From an uncultured Prevotellaceae bacterium (lineage in GTDB: Bacteria; Bacteroidota; Bacteroidia; Bacteroidales; Bacteroidaceae): DNA of 52,986 nucleotides. Each line of letters begins with the position of its first letter. The stretch's first letter is position 1. A program made the translations under genes and the position numbers. Under the pieces are notes generated by a model. That model saw only the letters and a program-made list of their open reading frames with translations, was not told the origin of the DNA and ran no database searches. The stretch covers positions 1-52,986 of the forward strand of contig ONGG01000015.1 of the NCBI GenBank assembly GCA_900317305.1, in the 5' to 3' direction. Below are positions 41,320-51,091 of this stretch, piece after piece.

Positions 41320-42261
41320 TCACCATTTGAACCGTGCCACAAGCGGCAGATGGTCGCTGAATCCCCGTTTCCATTTTGGTCCCTTGAAATTCCTCAAAGG
41401 CTGCTTTCCGCCATACTTCTCATCGTCTTCGAGCAGGAAAGGCTCATCGACGATACGACAGTCGTGGAGCCAATCGGCCAGGGCCTCGCTCACGAGGATA
41501 TGGTCGAGGCTTCCCCATTTTCCACGGAATTTGTACGTGCCTTTTGCCCCATTTTTTCCTTTTGCCCCCTGTGAGACACTCACCAGTTGCCGGGAGCACA
41601 GCCTGACGAGGGCGCTGTCGCCATCATAGTCGTTGAAGTCGCCGGCCACCAGCACCCGTGCATGGGGGTCGTGGCAGCGGAGCGAGTCGATGGCATCGGC
41701 CACCCGCTCGGCCACCCTCAGCCGGTAGGGCCTGGTGGCACGCTCTCCGTCGACCCTGCTGGGGGCATGCACCACCATCACGTGCAGGGTGTCGCCCGAG
41801 AGCACCAGTCCCTTGGCATAGAGGATATCGCGAGTGGCATGCTTCCCTTCAGGTGGAACCACCCTGAGGGCATACTGTCCAAGCAAGCGGAAGGAGAAAG
41901 GCGAATAGAGCAATGCCACGTCAATGCCTCGCTCGTCGGCCGAATGGGTCATCACATACTCGTATCCGGCATTCCTGAGGAGCGACCGCCGTGTGAGGTC
42001 GTGGAGCACCGAGTCGTTCTCCACCTCGGTGAGCGCAATCATGTCGGGCAGCGTCCAGCCCTCACCTTCATCACCACAAGCCACCAGTTCGCGAGCGATA
42101 TTATTGAGTTTGTTCCAATAGCGGTTTTTGTCCCATTTTTTCGCAGCCTTAGGCAGATACTCATAGTCGTTGAACCCCTCGTCGTGTTGGTAATCGAAGA
42201 GGTTCTCGCAATTCAGTTCAACGAAGGTGAACAGCGACACGAGCAAAAGAGACAATGACAT
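41320..42261 (-). CDS. endonuclease/exonuclease/phosphatase family protein
   Basis: 313 residues. The DNase I-like fold is shown by FVELNCENLFDYQ, DMIALTEVEND (catalytic Glu), VVHAPSR, VLVAGDFNDYDGDS (catalytic Asp/Asn), GSLDHILVS and GFSDHLPLVARF. A hydrophobic N-terminus (MSLSLLLVSLFTF) may be a short signal or membrane anchor. The family hydrolyses phosphodiesters of nucleic acids or lipids; substrate unknown. It lies 38 bases after tyrA and before a terminator, so it may be a passenger at the end of the aromatic operon. Confidence 0.85.
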   Translation of the reverse strand: MSLSLLLVSLFTFVELNCENLFDYQHDEGFNDYEYLPKAAKKWDKNRYWNKLNNIARELVACGDEGEGWTLPDMIALTEVENDSVLHDLTRRSLLRNAGYEYVMTHSADERGIDVALLYSPFSFRLLGQYALRVVPPEGKHATRDILYAKGLVLSGDTLHVMVVHAPSRVDGERATRPYRLRVAERVADAIDSLRCHDPHARVLVAGDFNDYDGDSALVRLCSRQLVSVSQGAKGKNGAKGTYKFRGKWGSLDHILVSEALADWLHDCRIVDEPFLLEDDEKYGGKQPLRNFKGPKWKRGFSDHLPLVARFKW

Positions 42262-42299: not shown

Positions 42300-43094
42300 C
42301 TATCTTTCTATCTTGATGTCATGCCTCACATTGTTGCGAATTTTCATCAGGTATGCCTTCATGCCATCGGCATCTTTTGTGTCGATGATATGCAACAGTT
42401 CCTTGAGTTCCGTCCGTATCTGCGCCACCTGATCGCTGGTATAGGGATTGAAGAGGATTTCCTGCAAGAGGTAGTCGTCCTCGTTGAGCACGCCCTTGGC
42501 GATTTTCATATGCCGTTTGAAGGTTGTGCCGGGTGCGTCCTGGTGTTTCATGACAGCGGCGAAGACAAACGTGCTCACGAACGGGATACTGAGCGAGTAG
42601 GCCACGGTGCGGTCGTGCTCGTCGAAGGTATACTCATAGATATTGAGGTCGAGCCGCTGGTAGAGGTCCTTGAAGAAGATGCGCCCCATATAGTCGCCCT
42701 CGCTGATGATGATGGCGTTCTCCTCGCTCAGTTGCTGGAGATTGGCAAAAGTGGGACCGAACATGGGGTGTGAGGAGACGAACCTGCGTCCCGTCTGCTC
42801 GTAATACTCTTTCAGGCCGGTCTTCACCGAGGCGATGTCGCTGATGATGCAGTCGTCGGGCAGGTAAGGGATGACCTCGTCGAAGGCCTTGATGGTGTTC
42901 TTCACCGTGACGGCGTTGATCACCAGTTCGGGTGCGAACTCGCGTATCTCTTCCAACTGTGTGAACCGCTGTGTGTTGTAGGTGAAGCGCATGCGCTTCG
43001 GGTCTTTCTCAAACACGGCCGTCTCGTGCTCAAAACTCAGCAGGTCGAGGAAGAAACTCCCCATCTTTCCTGCTCCCAGAACCAATATTCTCAT
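42300..43094 (-). CDS. tyrA: prephenate dehydrogenase
   Basis: 264 residues. It oxidises prephenate to 4-hydroxyphenylpyruvate on the way to tyrosine. N-terminal Rossmann motif GAGKMGSFFLDL, ISDIASVKTGLKEYY, and the SSHPMFGPTF segment with the conserved His of TyrA. The C-terminal helical domain follows; no ACT or chorismate mutase domain is fused. The ATG lies nine bases after the stop of the DAHP synthase/chorismate mutase gene, so it is part of the Phe/Tyr operon. Confidence 0.93.
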   Translation of the reverse strand: MRILVLGAGKMGSFFLDLLSFEHETAVFEKDPKRMRFTYNTQRFTQLEEIREFAPELVINAVTVKNTIKAFDEVIPYLPDDCIISDIASVKTGLKEYYEQTGRRFVSSHPMFGPTFANLQQLSEENAIIISEGDYMGRIFFKDLYQRLDLNIYEYTFDEHDRTVAYSLSIPFVSTFVFAAVMKHQDAPGTTFKRHMKIAKGVLNEDDYLLQEILFNPYTSDQVAQIRTELKELLHIIDTKDADGMKAYLMKIRNNVRHDIKIER

Positions 43095-43103
43095 AGTGTA
43101 GAA

Positions 43104-44168
43104 TTACTTGTTGATGATTTCCATTTGCTGGCGCACGCTTTCCTCGTGCACGCTCTCGAACACTTTCTTCACGAAGTCGGCTCCCATGCCGCAGAGCGAG
43201 CCCTGCGCACCTCGTTTGTCGAGGATCTCGCCATAACGGGCAGGCTGAAGCACGGTCATGTTGTGCTCTTTCTTGAACTGGCCTATCTCGCGGCACACCC
43301 TCATACGCTTGGCAAGCAAATCCATGAGCTGGTTGTCGAGCTCGTCGATCTGCTTCCTGAGTTCCCTGATATCCTCGGTGCTGACCGACTCGTCGCGGAT
43401 GACGAGCAGCGAGAGGATGTAGTCGAGCACGTCGGGAGTCACTTGTTGTGCGGCGTCGCTCCAAGCCATGTCGGGCTCGCAGTGCGACTCCACGATGAGT
43501 CCGTCGAAGCCCAAGTCCATGGCCTGCTGGCAGAGCGGAGCCACCAATTCGCGCCGTCCACCAATGTGGCTGGGGTCGCAGAGGATAGGCAGACTGGGAA
43601 TCCTACGGCGCAGTTCGATGGGAATCTGCCACATGGGCAGGTTGCGGTAGATTTTCTTGTCGTAGCTGGAGAATCCCCTATGGATGGCCGCCAACCGCTT
43701 GATGCCGGCCTGGTTGATACGCTCGAGCGCTCCAATCCACAGTTCCAGGTCGGGGTTGACCGGGTTTTTCACCAGCACAGGCACATCCACACCACGCAGG
43801 GAATCGGCCAGGGCCTGCATGGCGAAAGGGTTGGCCGAGGTGCGAGCACCTATCCACAGAATGTCGATGCCATACTTGAGGGCCAGCTCCACATGCTCGG
43901 GTGTGGCCACCTCGGTGGTGACAAGCATTCCCGTCTCTTCTTTCACCCGTTTCATCCACGGGAGGGCTTTCTCGCCATTCCCCTCGAAGCCACCGGGTTT
44001 CGTTCGGGGTTTCCACACGCCAGCGCGGAACATGTGGCATCCTTTTTTTGCCAGTTGTGTGGCGGTTGTCATCACTTGCTCCTCGGTCTCTGCGGAGCAT
44101 GGCCCTGCGATGACCACGGGTCGCTCATTGTCGCTGGGCAGTTTCAAGGGTTGAAGATCTAATTCCAT
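43104..44168 (-). CDS. DAHP synthase / chorismate mutase fusion
   Basis: 354 residues. N-terminal domain (about 1-255): 3-deoxy-7-phosphoheptulonate synthase of the type I-beta/KDO8P-like group (VVIAGPCSAETEEQV, FRAGVWKPRTKPGGFEG, WIGARTSANPFAMQ, ILCDPSHIGGRRELV), the first shikimate step. C-terminal domain (about 262-350): AroQ-type chorismate mutase (ELRKQIDELDNQLMDLLAKRMRV), which makes prephenate for pheA and tyrA. C-terminal mutase fusions of this kind are known from Prevotella and Porphyromonas, and the mutase part can carry feedback control. Encoded in the Phe/Tyr operon between the aminotransferase and tyrA. Confidence 0.95.
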   Translation of the reverse strand: MELDLQPLKLPSDNERPVVIAGPCSAETEEQVMTTATQLAKKGCHMFRAGVWKPRTKPGGFEGNGEKALPWMKRVKEETGMLVTTEVATPEHVELALKYGIDILWIGARTSANPFAMQALADSLRGVDVPVLVKNPVNPDLELWIGALERINQAGIKRLAAIHRGFSSYDKKIYRNLPMWQIPIELRRRIPSLPILCDPSHIGGRRELVAPLCQQAMDLGFDGLIVESHCEPDMAWSDAAQQVTPDVLDYILSLLVIRDESVSTEDIRELRKQIDELDNQLMDLLAKRMRVCREIGQFKKEHNMTVLQPARYGEILDKRGAQGSLCGMGADFVKKVFESVHEESVRQQMEIINK

Positions 44169-44258: not shown

Positions 44259-45440
44259 TTACCAGTCGAGGGCCTTTATCCGCTTGAGCGCCTCGCGCAT
44301 CTTATCGTCTTTGGCACAGAGCGAGATGCGGATGAATCGGCTGCCGTTGCTCCCGAAGATGAATCCCGGTGTGATGAAAACCCTCGCCTCGTGGAGCACG
44401 CGCTCGGTGAGCTGTTCCACATCGTCGTACTTATCGGGAATCTTTCCCCAAAGGAACATACCCACCTGCTTGGGGTCGAAGGTGCAGCCCAACTGTGTCA
44501 TGATGGCCTCGGCTATCTCACGACGACGGCCATAGGTCTCGATATTGGCTTGCCGGTGCCAACTGTCATCATTGTCGTAGGCCTGGGCGGCAGCCAGTTG
44601 TATGCCGCGGAAAGTTCCGCTGTCGATATTGCTCTTTACCTTGAGAATCCACGAGATGAAGGTGGCGTTGGTGGCGCAGAGTCCCACACGCCATCCCGGC
44701 ATGTTGTGGCTCTTGCTCATCGAGTTGAACTCGATACAGCACTCCTTTGCTCCTTCCACCTGGAGCAGCGAGCGGTGATGCTCGTTGAGGATGAATGAAT
44801 AGGGGTTGTCGTTCACCACCACGATGCCATGCCGGCGGGCGAAGTCAACCAACCGTTCATAAGTCTCCATCCTGGCATCGCCACCGGTGGGCATATTGGG
44901 ATAGTTGGTCCACATCAGCCTCACCCCACTGAGGTCCATGTTCTCCAGTTCATCAAAGTCGGGCTGCCAGCCATTATCCTCCCTAAGGTTGTAGTTCACG
45001 ATTCTCGCCCCCAGGATCTTGCTGAGCGAGGTGTAGGTGGGATAGCCCGGATTGGGCACCAGCACGCCGTCGCCAGGATTGACAAACGCCAATGTGACAT
45101 GCAGTATACCCTCTTTGCTGCCTATCAGCGGGAGGATCTCGGTGGCGGGGTCGAGCGTCACGCCATACCACCGTTGGTAAAAGCGCGCCATTGCCCCACG
45201 CAGTTCGGGCGTGCCCATGGTGGGTTGGTAGCCGTGGGCGTCGGGGCGCCGGGCCACCTGGCACAGTGTGTCGATGGTAGCCTCGGAGGGCGGCATGTCG
45301 GGACTGCCTATGGCCAGGCTGATGATGTCGCGGCCCTCGGCGTTGAGGCGTGCCACCTCCTTGAGTTTCCTACTGAAGTAATACTCCTGCACCAGACTGA
45401 GTCTGTCGGCGGGCTGTATGCTAATTGGTCTGTCTTCCAT
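44259..45440 (-). CDS. class I aminotransferase, probable aromatic aminotransferase
   Basis: 393 residues. A PLP-dependent aminotransferase (fold type I). PLP Lys is in EFNSMSKSHNMPGWRVG; YPNMPTGG and SRFIRISLC hold the substrate-carboxylate Arg. The N-terminus QEYYFSRKLKEVARLNAEGRDIISLAIGSPD is typical of the aspartate/LL-DAP aminotransferase subgroup. Its place between pheA and the DAHP synthase/chorismate mutase suggests it converts phenylpyruvate and hydroxyphenylpyruvate to Phe and Tyr; an aspartate substrate is possible too. Start overlaps the pheA 3' end by 20 bases. Confidence 0.88.
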   Translation of the reverse strand: MEDRPISIQPADRLSLVQEYYFSRKLKEVARLNAEGRDIISLAIGSPDMPPSEATIDTLCQVARRPDAHGYQPTMGTPELRGAMARFYQRWYGVTLDPATEILPLIGSKEGILHVTLAFVNPGDGVLVPNPGYPTYTSLSKILGARIVNYNLREDNGWQPDFDELENMDLSGVRLMWTNYPNMPTGGDARMETYERLVDFARRHGIVVVNDNPYSFILNEHHRSLLQVEGAKECCIEFNSMSKSHNMPGWRVGLCATNATFISWILKVKSNIDSGTFRGIQLAAAQAYDNDDSWHRQANIETYGRRREIAEAIMTQLGCTFDPKQVGMFLWGKIPDKYDDVEQLTERVLHEARVFITPGFIFGSNGSRFIRISLCAKDDKMREALKRIKALDW

Positions 45441-46263
45441 TTTGATATTCTCCTAAAATTTTCAGTTCTTTGGTCAGTGGTGTAATAGCGTCGATGCTCT
45501 GGCGGTATCGGGTGATGTTGTTGTAGGTCACATCCACGTAGAACAGGTATTCCCACTCATGTCCGATGATGGGCAGCGACTGTATCTTGGTAAGGTTGAT
45601 GTTGTAGAACGAGAGGATGGTGAGCACCTTGGAGAGAGCACCCTCCTCATGGGGCAGTGAGAAGACCAGGCTCGATTTGTCGGTCTTGTCGAGCGGGCGG
45701 AGGAAGTCGGCCTTACGGGGGTCGCACACCACAAGGAACCGGGTGAAGTTGTGCTTGTTGTCCTCAATGGAATCTTCGAGCACACGCATACCGTAGAGGC
45801 GGGCGGCGGCGGCACTGCAGATGGCAGCCTTGCCCCGCAACTGTTTCTCCATGATTTCCTCGGCAGCGCCGGCCGTATCTTCCGTTTCCACTGCTTTCAG
45901 TTCGGCATGCCGGGCCAGAAATTCCCGGCACTGCATCAGGGCCACGGGGTGCGAGTGTATCTCGTCGATGGTGTCCCAGTCGTCTTCGGGCAGGCAGCAG
46001 ATACAATGGCGTATATGCAGCTTGTGCTCGCCCACCACCGTGGTACCCGAGTCGCGCAGCAATTCGTAGTTGTGGAGCAAGCTGCCGGCGATGGTGTTCT
46101 CGATGGCTGTCATTCCGATGACAGTAGGGTCGTTGAGAATCTGTGCATACACCTCCTCGAAGGTGGCACAGCAGATCAGTTGCACCTGCTCGCCCTCGAA
46201 ATACAGATGGGCTGCCATATCGTGGAACGAACCGGCTTGACCCTGGATAGCTACTCTCTTCAT
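45421..46263 (-). CDS. pheA: prephenate dehydratase
   Basis: 280 residues. It converts prephenate to phenylpyruvate. Catalytic domain (about 1-185): VAIQGQAGSFHDMAAHLYF, GMTAIENTIAGSLLHNYELL, and the HNFTRFLVV motif with the catalytic Thr. A C-terminal ACT domain (about 200-275: SLVFSLPHEEGALSKVLTILS) is the Phe-binding feedback site. There is no fused chorismate mutase; that activity is on the DAHP synthase. First structural gene of the operon, 87 bases downstream of the leader-peptide stop and 15 bases after the attenuator stem. Confidence 0.95.
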   Translation of the reverse strand: MKRVAIQGQAGSFHDMAAHLYFEGEQVQLICCATFEEVYAQILNDPTVIGMTAIENTIAGSLLHNYELLRDSGTTVVGEHKLHIRHCICCLPEDDWDTIDEIHSHPVALMQCREFLARHAELKAVETEDTAGAAEEIMEKQLRGKAAICSAAAARLYGMRVLEDSIEDNKHNFTRFLVVCDPRKADFLRPLDKTDKSSLVFSLPHEEGALSKVLTILSFYNINLTKIQSLPIIGHEWEYLFYVDVTYNNITRYRQSIDAITPLTKELKILGEYQNGRQTN

Positions 46264-46277
46264 ACTGTTCTTATTTT

Positions 46278-46308
46278 AAACACAAATCCCGCCTCTATCG
46301 AAGCGGGA
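46278..46308 (-). terminator. attenuator terminator of the Phe/Tyr operon
   Basis: On the RNA (minus strand) UCCCGCUUC (46308-46300) pairs with GAGGCGGGA (46295-46287) over nine base pairs including one G-U, with a GAUA loop. UUUGUGUUU follows. Its 5' arm can instead pair with an upstream segment inside the leader-peptide gene (see antiterminator). Confidence 0.85.
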
Positions 46309-46372
46309 AACTGACTGTAGGCTCTCGGCCTGGTGGTCATAAGTTGAAATCTACACGCAACTTCCCGCTTCG
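46299..46372 (-). promoter_or_regulatory. antiterminator of the Phe/Tyr operon
   Basis: CGAAGCGGGAA (46372-46362 read on the minus strand) is perfectly complementary over 11 bases to UUCCCGCUUCG (46309-46299), which is also the 5' arm of the terminator. The two structures exclude each other. The upstream arm lies in leader codons 18-22, eleven bases after the last aromatic codon, so a ribosome stalled on the aromatic run leaves it free while one that reaches the stop codon covers it. Confidence 0.85.
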
Positions 46373-46425
46373 CAATGGCTTGCAAAGTAAAAATAGAAGT
46401 AATAGTATGCGTTGAAGGTTCTCAT
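46351..46425 (-). CDS. Phe/Tyr leader peptide (attenuation)
   Basis: 24 codons from ATG 46423-46425 to TAG 46351-46353. The peptide begins MRTFNA, continues YYYFYFYF and ends ASHCEAGSCV. Residues 7-14 are eight consecutive aromatic codons, and with Phe4 there are five Tyr and four Phe codons in total. It begins about 20 bases after the predicted transcription start and overlaps the antiterminator arm. It is the sensor of charged tRNA-Phe and tRNA-Tyr for the pheA-aminotransferase-DAHP synthase/chorismate mutase-tyrA operon. Recognised here from composition and position, not from a known family. Confidence 0.9.
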   Translation of the reverse strand: MRTFNAYYYFYFYFASHCEAGSCV

Positions 46426-46450
46426 ACCTATGATTCTCTTGATTTGGCTG

Positions 46451-46482
46451 CAAATTTATAACATTATGACCACATCCACAAA
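46451..46482 (-). promoter_or_regulatory. promoter of the Phe/Tyr operon (TTTG-N20-TAAATTTG)
   Basis: Minus-strand TTTG (46479-46482) and TAAATTTG (46451-46458) are separated by exactly 20 bases, both exact consensus matches. Transcription should start near 46444-46447, giving a 180-base leader before pheA. Confidence 0.88.
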
Positions 46483-46529
46483 CATTTTGATGTTTTTTTT
46501 GCTTTTTTGTTGATTTATTGTTGCAAAAT

Positions 46530-46686: not shown

Positions 46687-46768
46687 AAATTACGGGCACG
46701 ATCACTGTTTTGGGTGGCTGAAACCACAAAAAAAACACTTTATCGAAATAGGAAAACATTTTTTTGTT

Positions 46769-46776
46769 TATCTTTG
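46769..46776 (+). promoter_or_regulatory. btuB promoter -7 box (TATCTTTG)
   Basis: TATCTTTG is an exact -7 match that ends two bases before the first paired base of the riboswitch P1 stem, so the RNA begins with the aptamer. No clear -33 TTTG. Confidence 0.65.
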
Positions 46777-46778
46777 CA

Positions 46779-46944
46779 GTGCAATTGGTTCACGAACTCA
46801 AGTGATGAAAAAGGGAATCGGGTGGAACTCCCGAGCAGTCCCGCTGCTGTGAGTCGTCCTTCCATGCGCCAACAACAAGCCACTGGCCCCCTTGCCGGGA
46901 AGGCGTTGGCACACGACGACAAGCCAGAATACCTGCCATTGCAC
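46779..46944 (+). ncRNA. cobalamin riboswitch
   Basis: P1 is closed by GTGCAAT (46779-46785) and ATTGCAC (46938-46944). The core contains GGGAATCGGGTGGAACTCCCG, AGCAGTCCCGCTGCTGTGAG, the B12-box-like AGCCACTGG, CCGGGAAGGCG and the 3' signature AAGCCAGAATACCTGCC. These are the conserved blocks of the cobalamin (B12) aptamer in order. The btuB ATG follows 48 bases later. There is no T-run; a GCCTCC...GGCGG pairing near the start codon hints at translational control. It would shut the uptake genes when cobalamin is plentiful. Confidence 0.95.
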
Positions 46945-46992
46945 GACAACATCTCGCCTCCACGATGTATGGCGGCGCAGAAGAAGAAGCCC

Positions 46993-49012: not shown

Positions 49013-51091
49013 ATGACAAAAAAGAGCACCACATACCACCAATCCCTCTGCCACCTGATGACGGCCATCGCCGCTTTGCTGATGGTGGGACTCACCTCGT
49101 GCCGCGACGACAACATCGTGGTCTATCCCACCCATACCGACACCGGTGACATCATCGACGGCGACTACGTGGGCATGTACGTGCTCAATGAGGGCAACAT
49201 GGGGTCGAACAAATGCACGCTCGACTACCTCGACTTCGAGACCGGCACCTACCAGCGCAACATCTATCCCTCACGCAACCCCAACCAAGTGATGGAGCTT
49301 GGCGACGTGGGCAACGACATCAAAATCTACGGCAGCAGCCTGTGGATGGTGGTCAACATGTCGAACAAGGTGGAGGTGGCCCATGCCGCCACCGCCGTGA
49401 GCCGTGGCCATGTCGACATCCCCAACTGCCGCAACGTGGCCTTTGCCGATGGTTATGCCTATGTGAGTGCCTATGTGGGCGAAATCAGCAGTGAGTCGGT
49501 GCTGGGAGGCGTCTACAAGGTTGACACCACCACGCTCCAAGTGGTGGACAAGGTGACGGTGGGCTACCAGCCCGACGAGTTGGTGGTGAGCGGTGGCAAG
49601 ATTTATGTGGCCAACAGCGGAGGTTACCAGGCCGTGCAAGGCAAGGGCTACGACAACCGTGTGAGCGTCATCGACCTCGCCACTTTCACCCATGAGCGAG
49701 ACATCGAAGTGGCCCCCAACCTCTCGCTCATCCGTGCCGACCGCCATGGCCGTCTGTGGGTGGCCTCGCGGGGCGATTACGGCTCGCACCGCCCCAACCT
49801 TTACTGGCTAGAGAAAAATGCCGACGGACAGATGACTCTGGCCGGCAGCATCGATGCCTCCATTGGCGGGATGTGCATAGATGGCGACTCCCTCTACTAC
49901 TATGGCGCCACCCAGGATGCCACGGGCAGACAAATCAAAGCATTTGGCATCATCGACCTCCAGCAGAAGCGCATCGTGGACCAAACCCCGTTGCAAGAAC
50001 CGGCCGACAATCCCATCAAGACCCCCTACGGCATCACCATACACCCCGAGACCCACGACATCTTCGTGATGGACGCCACCAACTACGTGTCGAGCGGCAA
50101 ACTCTACTGCTTCGACCGTCATGGCCAATGGAAATGGGTGATGTGGACAGGCGACATCCCCGCCCATACCGCTTTCGTGCCCCGCAACCTGAAAGCCAGT
50201 TTCGAGCCTGAGGACGACACCCCCAAGACCTACAGCAAATACATCCAGGCCGTAGACGAGTATATGCCCGCTCCGGGACAATTTGTCAACACCCTGCCCG
50301 AATGCACCGCCGACGACACCCCCGCCTCGGTGGCTGCGAAATGCACCGAGGCCATCGCAGACAACAACTCGGGGTTGGTGACCCTGGGCGCCTATGGCGG
50401 ATACATCACCTTCCACTTCGACCACAGCATCGCCAATCTTCCCGGCCAGCGCGACATCTACATCAAGGGCAACACCTATGCCGGCAACAGCGAGCCCGGC
50501 ATCGTGATGGTGGCCGAAGACACCAACCACAACGGCATCGCCGATGACCCCTGGTATGAGTTGGCCGGCAGTGCCGACACCGACAGCGCCGCGCTCATGG
50601 TATACAACTACGAGATCACCTACACCCCCAATCCCCTTGGCGACATTGGATGGACCGACAATCAAGGTCGCAGCGGCGTGGTGGAACGCAACACCTTCCA
50701 CACCCAGGAGTACTTCCCGCTGTGGCACGACGGCCCACTGCAGTTCAGAGGCACCCTGCTGCCCCGAAACGCCGAGGACCAAAGCCGTGGCACAACCCAA
50801 TACTGGGTGCTCAGTGCCCTGCGTTACGGCTATGCCGACAACGTGGCCAACACCGACACGCTGGGCTGCAGCTTCGACATCGGATGGGCCGTGGACAACC
50901 ACCGTCAGCCCGTACACCTCGACCACATCGACTTCGTGCGTGTGTATAGTGCCGAGAACCAGATTTGCGGATGGATAGGTGAGACCTCTACCGAGGTGAG
51001 CGGTGCCGAGGACCTGCACCTGGAAGCCTCGCTCGAGGCCATGAGCCGCCGCAAGGGCACGGCGAGAAAACCGAGAACCAATCAACACTAA
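49013..51091 (+). CDS. BtuG-like surface propeller lipoprotein with extra C-terminal domain
   Basis: 692 residues. Lipoprotein signal ending LMVGLTSC (Cys30), followed by RDDN, a charged context that fits Bacteroidetes surface export. Residues about 50-385 form a YncE-like seven-bladed propeller (MYVLNEGNMGSNKCTLDYLD, GKIYVANSGGYQ, HPETHDIFVMDATNYVSSGKLY). BtuG proteins of this type cap BtuB and bind B12 at the cell surface. The remaining about 290 residues are an additional domain (TLGAYGGYITFHFDHSI, GNTYAGNSEPGIVMVAEDTN, DDPWYELAGS) that I do not recognise by name; its beta-rich, Asp/Asn pattern suggests a carbohydrate- or ligand-binding sandwich. Starts 13 bases after btuB. Confidence 0.82.
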   Translation: MTKKSTTYHQSLCHLMTAIAALLMVGLTSCRDDNIVVYPTHTDTGDIIDGDYVGMYVLNEGNMGSNKCTLDYLDFETGTYQRNIYPSRNPNQVMELGDVGNDIKIYGSSLWMVVNMSNKVEVAHAATAVSRGHVDIPNCRNVAFADGYAYVSAYVGEISSESVLGGVYKVDTTTLQVVDKVTVGYQPDELVVSGGKIYVANSGGYQAVQGKGYDNRVSVIDLATFTHERDIEVAPNLSLIRADRHGRLWVASRGDYGSHRPNLYWLEKNADGQMTLAGSIDASIGGMCIDGDSLYYYGATQDATGRQIKAFGIIDLQQKRIVDQTPLQEPADNPIKTPYGITIHPETHDIFVMDATNYVSSGKLYCFDRHGQWKWVMWTGDIPAHTAFVPRNLKASFEPEDDTPKTYSKYIQAVDEYMPAPGQFVNTLPECTADDTPASVAAKCTEAIADNNSGLVTLGAYGGYITFHFDHSIANLPGQRDIYIKGNTYAGNSEPGIVMVAEDTNHNGIADDPWYELAGSADTDSAALMVYNYEITYTPNPLGDIGWTDNQGRSGVVERNTFHTQEYFPLWHDGPLQFRGTLLPRNAEDQSRGTTQYWVLSALRYGYADNVANTDTLGCSFDIGWAVDNHRQPVHLDHIDFVRVYSAENQICGWIGETSTEVSGAEDLHLEASLEAMSRRKGTARKPRTNQH

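Follow-up and report, generated by a model that had tools for sequence, protein, structure and literature searches.

A predicted ribosome-mediated attenuator with a mixed phenylalanine and tyrosine sensor precedes the pheA operon in Prevotella and other Bacteroidia

Introduction

Does a ribosome translating a short aromatic peptide decide whether an operon for phenylalanine and tyrosine is transcribed? The question is raised by a locus of an uncultured Prevotellaceae bacterium (GenBank assembly GCA_900317305.1, contig ONGG01000015.1). The window, which is the whole stretch of DNA analysed, comprises positions 1 to 52,986 of this contig (52,986 nucleotides). On its minus strand, from 46482 to 46277, lie in order a promoter, a 24-codon reading frame, and a hairpin with a U-rich tail; the next element is pheA. 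We consider it very likely that this region is a trp/phe-type attenuator, in which a translating ribosome would control transcription of the pheA operon.

The pheL leader of Escherichia coli is Phe-only, and the ilvGMEDA and thr leaders of enterobacteria are multivalent, responding to more than one operon-dependent amino acid. In 2010, leader-peptide systems were described as known only in Proteobacteria and Actinobacteria, plus the authors' own case in Firmicutes (PMC2965389). Strong clues for leader-peptide attenuation were reported in 2021 5′ of amino-acid operons of Flavobacterium psychrophilum, together with 5′ elements before pheA and hisG that also occur in other genera of Flavobacteriaceae and matched no Rfam family (PMC9723704). 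In Bacteroides thetaiotaomicron, long 5′ UTRs contain short ORFs reminiscent of leader peptides, which is a different example (PMC7366714).

Results and Discussion

The pheA operon and its neighbors

The first gene, pheA (45421..46263), encodes a prephenate dehydratase with an ACT domain (PF00800, 2.4e-53; ACT, 0.00013, under Pfam's own cut-off). It overlaps by 20 nt a class I/II aminotransferase gene (44259..45440; PF00155, 3.7e-58), which is followed 90 nt on by a DAHP synthase-chorismate mutase fusion (43104..44168; PF00793 and PF01817) and, 9 nt further, by tyrA, for prephenate dehydrogenase (42300..43094; PF02153, 7.2e-12). All are on the minus strand, and the Pfam matches agree with the gene content read from the letters in a preliminary description of this DNA. 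A gene of the endonuclease/exonuclease/phosphatase family (41320..42261, minus strand; PF19580, 2.5e-60) begins 38 nt after tyrA. The terminator scan of this strand placed no site between the two genes and two sites just beyond the latter, which is possibly the fifth and last gene of the attenuated operon.

Diverging from the pheA operon, a cobalamin riboswitch (46768-46954, plus strand, 105.8 bits) precedes a BtuB-like TonB receptor and a DUF5074 protein (49013-51091). The receptor ORF is listed from 46714 and its true start is probably after the riboswitch.

Promoter, leader peptide and helices of the window

The promoter comprises a -33 element, TTTG (46482-46479), and a -7 element, TAAATTTG (46458-46451), with a spacer of 20 nt, and is by its motifs of the Bacteroidales type. 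The leader ORF, MRTFNAYYYFYFYFASHCEAGSCV, runs on the minus strand from its ATG at 46425 to its TAG at 46351 (46351..46425), and was recognized from the sequence, the ORF list and its conservation. Codons 7-14, YYYFYFYF (46384..46407), are the putative sensor. The predicted leader ORF is short and strings together codons for the operon's own products, and the mixed Phe/Tyr run fits an operon making both amino acids. A leader gene of 24 codons is easy for annotation to miss. The pattern of six consecutive Phe/Tyr codons is by itself uninformative, since it had 12 matches in the bacterium's own genome (three of them this leader) and the reversed control pattern had 24. The fold of the leader region is unusually stable (z = -3.19), none of 200 shuffles being equally stable.

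Arm 2 of the antiterminator, CGAAGCGGGAA (46372-46362, that is 46362..46372 on the minus strand), is exactly complementary over 11 bp to arm 3, TTCCCGCTTCG (46309-46299, or 46299..46309). Arm 3 also belongs to the predicted intrinsic terminator 3:4, TCCCGCTTC-GATA-GAGGCGGGA (46287..46308), whose stem has 9 bp with one G-U. The two structures are mutually exclusive through this common arm. The U-rich tail, TTTGTGTTTA (46277..46286), has six T in its first eight bases, with a G interrupting, and 23 nt lie between the end of the hairpin and the ATG of pheA. By sequence, then, an intrinsic terminator lies ahead of the first structural gene. This site tops the terminator list of the window, although the scan as a whole was at chance level (12 sites against 8.5 in shuffles, sd 3.4).

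These parts had been set out in the preliminary description, which claimed that every element of attenuation was present. The TTTG-N20-TAAATTTG promoter, the 24-codon peptide with its aromatic codons 7-14, the 11-bp antiterminator and the 9-bp terminator with its U-rich tail and common middle segment are all exact in the sequence; the protector helix 1:2 and a small hairpin had been overlooked. The protector (46368..46387, minus strand) pairs CUUUGCAA (46387-46380, in codons 13-16) with UUGCGAAG (46375-46368). It has 8 bp, and it overlaps codons 13-14 as well as the antiterminator, its UUGCGAAG strand covering bases of the 5′ half of arm 2. Its pairing was seen in the alignment, and RNAalifold recovered seven of the eight pairs de novo. 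This helix is the 1:2 helix of classical attenuators and completes the trp/phe-type architecture. The small hairpin (46357..46368, 46368-46365 with 46360-46357, minus strand), over part of arm 2, came from the RNAalifold consensus. Its GCGG...UUGC stem shows one-sided changes only, G-U/G-C exchanges across Prevotella, and it may reinforce the protector. An AAGTTG...CAACTT pairing of the window was rejected as a candidate, being lost in many relatives.

Occurrence across Bacteroidia and sister classes

The preliminary description had staked its reading on aromatic leaders and both pairings in orthologous regions, and the orthologues bear it out. All 94 Prevotella loci have a leader with at least six aromatic residues of eight before pheA, and in an alignment of 85 of their sequences helices 2:3 and 3:4 are paired in most cells (84.0% and 89.9%). 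The 94 loci are the window, all 13 congeners with a pheA match (four of the 17 congeners searched had none) and 80 of 80 further loci, which were the closest 80 and not a random sample; as the PheA of L051 is 99% identical to that of the window and at least two contigs occur in both sets, they represent about 91 distinct loci. The association with pheA is more than chance: the 80 further loci hold 80 ATG ORFs with at least six of eight aromatic residues within 400 nt 5′ of pheA, and five in the 761,802 bases, both strands counted, outside the pheA upstream regions. The sense strand carries 17 such ORFs in 60 loci from elsewhere in the phylum, and the antisense strand none.

Elsewhere in Bacteroidia, a leader with at least five of eight aromatic residues was present in 48 of the 50 loci having upstream sequence: 6/6 from other families of the order, 2/2 from the same family, 22/22 class loci among L024-L050 and 18/20 among L131-L150. 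L022-L050 were the best-scoring matches and L131-L150 were 20 more chosen for spread over genera; L019 was excluded, its contig ending at pheA. The leader of L145 starts with GTG. In the two leaderless loci, L140 and L141, open frames of 131 and 265 codons end 14 and 5 nt from the pheA match, so that pheA is probably not the first gene of the operon there.

The sister classes gave a leader in six of 45 loci (L026, L029, L034, L039, L151 and L037, the last 640 nt upstream), the 45 being the five best matches and 40 loci chosen across families. These six have the most window-like PheA among the sister-class matches (at least 195 bits). All 39 lower-scoring loci are without a leader once the weak aromatic ORFs of L167, L175, L176 and L183 are dropped, where a terminator is missing or lies 171-290 nt away. 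This distribution suggests that the leader goes with pheA operons of the Bacteroidia type. An aminotransferase or DAHP synthase gene flanks pheA in 127 of the 129 loci examined; in the two exceptions, L009 and L021, the sequence ends shortly after or inside pheA.

A terminator, for which the finder required a T-rich tail, follows 145 of 147 leaders. The comparisons below use these 145 loci, 92 from Prevotella and 53 others, without L075 and L113, in which the finder failed. In these two of the 94 Prevotella loci the leader and hairpin are present and the U-run after the hairpin is missing; the attenuator may be decaying there, or another kind of termination may be used. Among the 92 Prevotella loci, the first eight tail bases hold four or five T in 55, six in 21, and seven or eight in 16, by which the window, with six, has no weaker a tail than most of the genus. 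The promoter is also conserved: a TAnnTTTG -7 box lies no more than 90 nt from the leader ATG in 90 of the 92 (3.5% of shuffles), and 81 have in addition a TTG 19-22 nt from it.

Another way in which such a region might act is translational, the hairpin and leader governing ribosome access or re-initiation at pheA. The hairpin does end close to the pheA start, at the 23 nt given above, and re-initiation at short leader genes is a published proposal, accompanied by a distance peak in groups that include Bacteroidetes (PMC4833913). The peak given for Bacteroidetes, at 11-14 bp, is far exceeded by the leader-pheA distances, which are 87 nt from the leader stop in the window, at least 62 nt in all 145 loci, and 60-150 nt in 84/92 Prevotella and 48/53 others. 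Since the T-rich terminators following nearly every leader also speak against it, translational control is very improbable.

The aromatic run

Counted back from and including the last aromatic codon, the eight-codon stretches of the 145 loci contain TTT 421, TAC 312, TAT 194 and TTC 91 times. Thus 1018 of 1160 codons specify Phe or Tyr; Trp accounts for 17, and Gly is the next commonest. Beyond Prevotella, Phe and Tyr swap within the run. As the Phe and Tyr codons are interchangeable, it is the coding meaning that is kept and not the identity of the bases. This bears on the idea of direct sensing of Phe, Tyr or a metabolite by the leader RNA, as a riboswitch or protein-binding element with an incidental ORF. 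The 5′ region is indeed structured and conserved, and a true riboswitch stands nearby in the window, but such an RNA would not account for the four interchangeable codons with some Trp, nor for arms that vary between families while the aromatic run persists. At a permissive threshold, Rfam, whose families would cover T-boxes, riboswitches and known amino-acid leaders, recognized none in 46250-46500, with two chance matches (E 2.9 and 4.2), and at gathering scores it found in the whole window only the cobalamin riboswitch and a tRNA. Direct sensing by the RNA is very improbable.

Certain peptides arrest the ribosome by their own sequence, as in tnaC and the erm leaders, and the nascent aromatic peptide might do so here, with a free amino acid or a drug as the cue. 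The end of the run is tightly constrained in Prevotella, where the last aromatic residue is Phe in 91/92 loci and the penultimate one Tyr in 91/92. Helix 1:2, to which these bases belong, accounts for the constraint. Beyond the genus the aromatic residues come in varying order, and the residues after the run differ too, which is ill-suited to sequence-specific arrest; we give this reading very little credence, and prefer stalling on the codons of a scarce amino acid.

Conservation and covariation of the three helices

The helices were tested in the alignment of 85 Prevotella sequences against shuffles and against helices slid by 1-3 columns; the slid controls weigh more, because shuffles do not keep relatedness. 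Helix 1:2 is paired in all 679 usable cells (100%; slid controls 35-59%), with 28 double-change cells (shuffles 8.2), which all fall at a single pair and are A-U to G-C in 26. Helix 3:4 exceeds its slid controls (38-60%) and has 60 double-change cells against 18.6. Helix 2:3 also exceeds the slid controls (35-47%), and has 24 double-change cells against 9.7, with double changes at six pairs; only 14/85 sequences retain its outermost pair. Its covariation score (0.097) is similar to those of the slides at -1 and -2 columns (0.098 and 0.095), because the arm core is nearly invariant in Prevotella, and the weight for 2:3 is therefore carried by the pairing percentage and by the arms of other families.

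The better evidence for 2:3, judged from the arm sequences, comes indeed from loci outside the genus. Arm 2/arm 3 contain GAAGCGGGA/TCCCGCTTC in Prevotella (for example L008), CGAGGCTT/AAGCCTCG in L020, CGAGACCT/AGGTCTCG in L025, GCCGGAGG/CCTCCGGT in L030, and AGGATTGT/ACAATCCT in L043: the arms change between families yet still match each other. In the 53 non-Prevotella loci the mean complementarity score of the two arms is 20.7; shuffles give 12.4, and pairing with the arms of other loci gives 14.7. It is above the 95th percentile of the locus's own shuffles in 45/53 of these (eight are below) and in 87/92 Prevotella.

The protector region pairs with arm 2, in folds without a ribosome, in 85/92 Prevotella and 43/53 others (base-shuffled controls, 0.29 and 0.25). 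Arm 2 starts 9 nt (median) after the last aromatic codon in Prevotella and 10 nt in the others, with a range of 5-18 nt over the 145 loci. This spacing is about one ribosome footprint.

Folding with a ribosome and the proposed mechanism

In the mechanism that we propose, RNA polymerase would start about 20 nt 5′ of the leader ATG, as predicted from the promoter, with a ribosome trailing through the 24 codons. When charged tRNA-Phe or tRNA-Tyr is scarce, the ribosome would halt within codons 7-14 and, toward the end of the run, would cover segment 1 and block the protector. Arm 2, thus free, would pair with arm 3 ahead of the synthesis of arm 4. This would block the terminator, and the genes from pheA through the aminotransferase and the DAHP synthase/chorismate mutase to tyrA would be transcribed. 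With both amino acids ample, the ribosome would move over arm 2, 3:4 would form, and transcription would end near 46278-46286. In the absence of a ribosome, 1:2 and 3:4 would form and the default state would be off.

The folding was computed with a footprint model in which 12 nt are protected past the first base of the A-site codon. With the A site at codons 7-14 of the full window leader, the antiterminator has a probability of at least 0.99; from codon 15 onward the terminator has at least 0.95. The earlier suggestion that arm 2 lies just past the aromatic codons and is freed by stalling is in line with the predicted switch at codon 14/15, which shifts by no more than one codon to either side with footprints of 9-15 nt. 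Both the window folds and the spacing in the 145 loci place the sensor codons such that a stalled ribosome would free arm 2 and a passing one would cover it. A ribosome on the codons before the run would also antiterminate in the window (0.81 at codon 1, at least 0.88 afterwards), and on the non-aromatic codons 2, 3, 5 and 6 it would do so in both fold states.

Without a ribosome, the full window leader forms 1:2 (0.99) and 3:4 (1.00), which is off by default at equilibrium; the RNA before arm 4 favors 2:3 (1.00 in the window). In this shorter RNA, 2:3 persists in the window with the A site at codon 15 (0.99) and 16 (0.65), and pairing without a ribosome has means of 0.66 in Prevotella and 0.62 in the others. 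The off state therefore rests on refolding once arm 4 appears.

Equilibrium switching, taken as a terminator probability below 0.2 at one or more of the final five codon positions and above 0.8 at the stop codon, was given by only 24/92 Prevotella and 11/53 other loci. Most relatives fail because their terminators outweigh the antiterminators at equilibrium. In the RNA made before arm 4, when the ribosome stands at the most favorable of the final four codons of the run, more than half of arm 3 is paired to the leader zone in 92/92 Prevotella and 53/53 others, so that kinetic trapping of the antiterminator would do for the relatives. In this model, in which the folds take no account of polymerase speed, the relatives failing at equilibrium would need co-transcriptional kinetics.

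Tandem leaders and leaders for other amino acids

A search for two aromatic leaders, each with its own terminator, covered the regions upstream of pheA in 189 loci (L001-L130 except L019, plus L131-L190) and flagged five. In L037 the second ORF and its hairpin are weak. The other four (L021, L027, L041 and L135), from three family-level groups, are by their sequences probable tandem attenuators. Both leaders of all four have candidate arm 2/arm 3 pairings of 5-10 bp; the arms of the second leader appeared in one of two analyses in L021, and as different pairs in each analysis in L027.

Putative leaders for other amino acids were sought as ORFs within 500 nt upstream of the gene match. An ORF with at least four His of eight residues precedes hisG in 18 of 28 class loci (28 of 30 retrieved), L247, L253, L257, L262 and L263 among them, with 0/28 in antisense. 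An ORF with at least three Trp of eight precedes trpE in 10 of 21 loci (of 30 retrieved) and in three of four added loci, which were picked after three had already been seen to have one; the antisense count was 0/25. Such Trp-rich leader ORFs are those of L206, L278, L283, L284, L287 and others. In three Prevotella (L209, L213 and L243) a Trp leader stands at least 1.5 kb upstream of trpE; the stretches of L241 and L242 were without one. No convincing Trp leader was found in the bacterium's own genome in the stretches 5′ of trpE, which may not extend to the first gene of that trp operon, and seven Prevotella hisG regions, including that of the same genome, had no His leader near the gene. Before the large aspartokinase gene, an ORF with at least five Thr/Ile of eight was found in 6/13 loci (of 30), against 1/13 in antisense, and two or three of these look convincing by eye. 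L305 has upstream of a gene of this family a leader-like ORF, MYNSTIIITIIITTGRNLAEE, which resembles the enterobacterial thr leader.

Comparison with known systems

The E. coli pheA attenuator (pheL) has, like the present one, an aromatic-rich leader and helices 1:2, 2:3 and 3:4 before pheA. It differs from the leader described here, in which Phe and Tyr alternate and to which some relatives add Trp; the operon here makes both amino acids and has a Bacteroidales-type promoter, and Rfam has no matching family. The predicted sensing of more than one amino acid is shared with the ilvGMEDA and thr leaders, which respond to other amino acids and belong to another phylum. The putative His and Trp leader ORFs of other Bacteroidia are likewise short, with cognate codons, upstream of hisG and upstream or far upstream of trpE.

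The pheA 5′ element of Flavobacteriaceae resembles the window leader in being structured, located before pheA in the same class and without an Rfam family; the available part of PMC9723704 gives for it no sequence, arms, covariation, codons or distribution beyond the family. The remark in the preliminary description that no case was known in Prevotella holds as far as our search by title and abstract goes, which found no published Prevotella leader of this type, although a 2010 survey by Lopatovskaya, Seliverstov and Lyubetsky may list Bacteroidetes attenuators; for the phylum, the clues of PMC9723704 came earlier. The mechanism is the textbook one, and the attenuator is complete, phylogenetically supported and, as far as searched, scarcely described in this group. 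The present work adds the mixed Phe/Tyr, sometimes Trp, sensor with three helices across Bacteroidia, the probable tandem copies in four loci, and the His- and Trp-rich leaders in the class.

Significance

We hold it moderately probable that attenuation is an ancestral, class-wide regime of Bacteroidia, with a Phe/Tyr (sometimes Trp) sensor before nearly every pheA operon, two sensors in series in some lineages, and His and Trp, perhaps also Thr/Ile, leaders elsewhere. Ribosomes of Bacteroidota mostly initiate without a Shine-Dalgarno sequence. For flavobacteria, the absence of Shine-Dalgarno sequences is noted in the available part of PMC9723704. If the class-wide regime is true, ribosomes would keep close behind RNA polymerase in a phylum where Shine-Dalgarno initiation is generally missing, and the pheA attenuators across Bacteroidia would be natural reporters of transcription-translation coupling in the phylum. 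The leader would also offer a ready promoter-sensor-terminator cassette for gut Bacteroidales. The interest of the finding lies in this class-wide reach and in what it would imply for coupling, and not in the mechanism itself.
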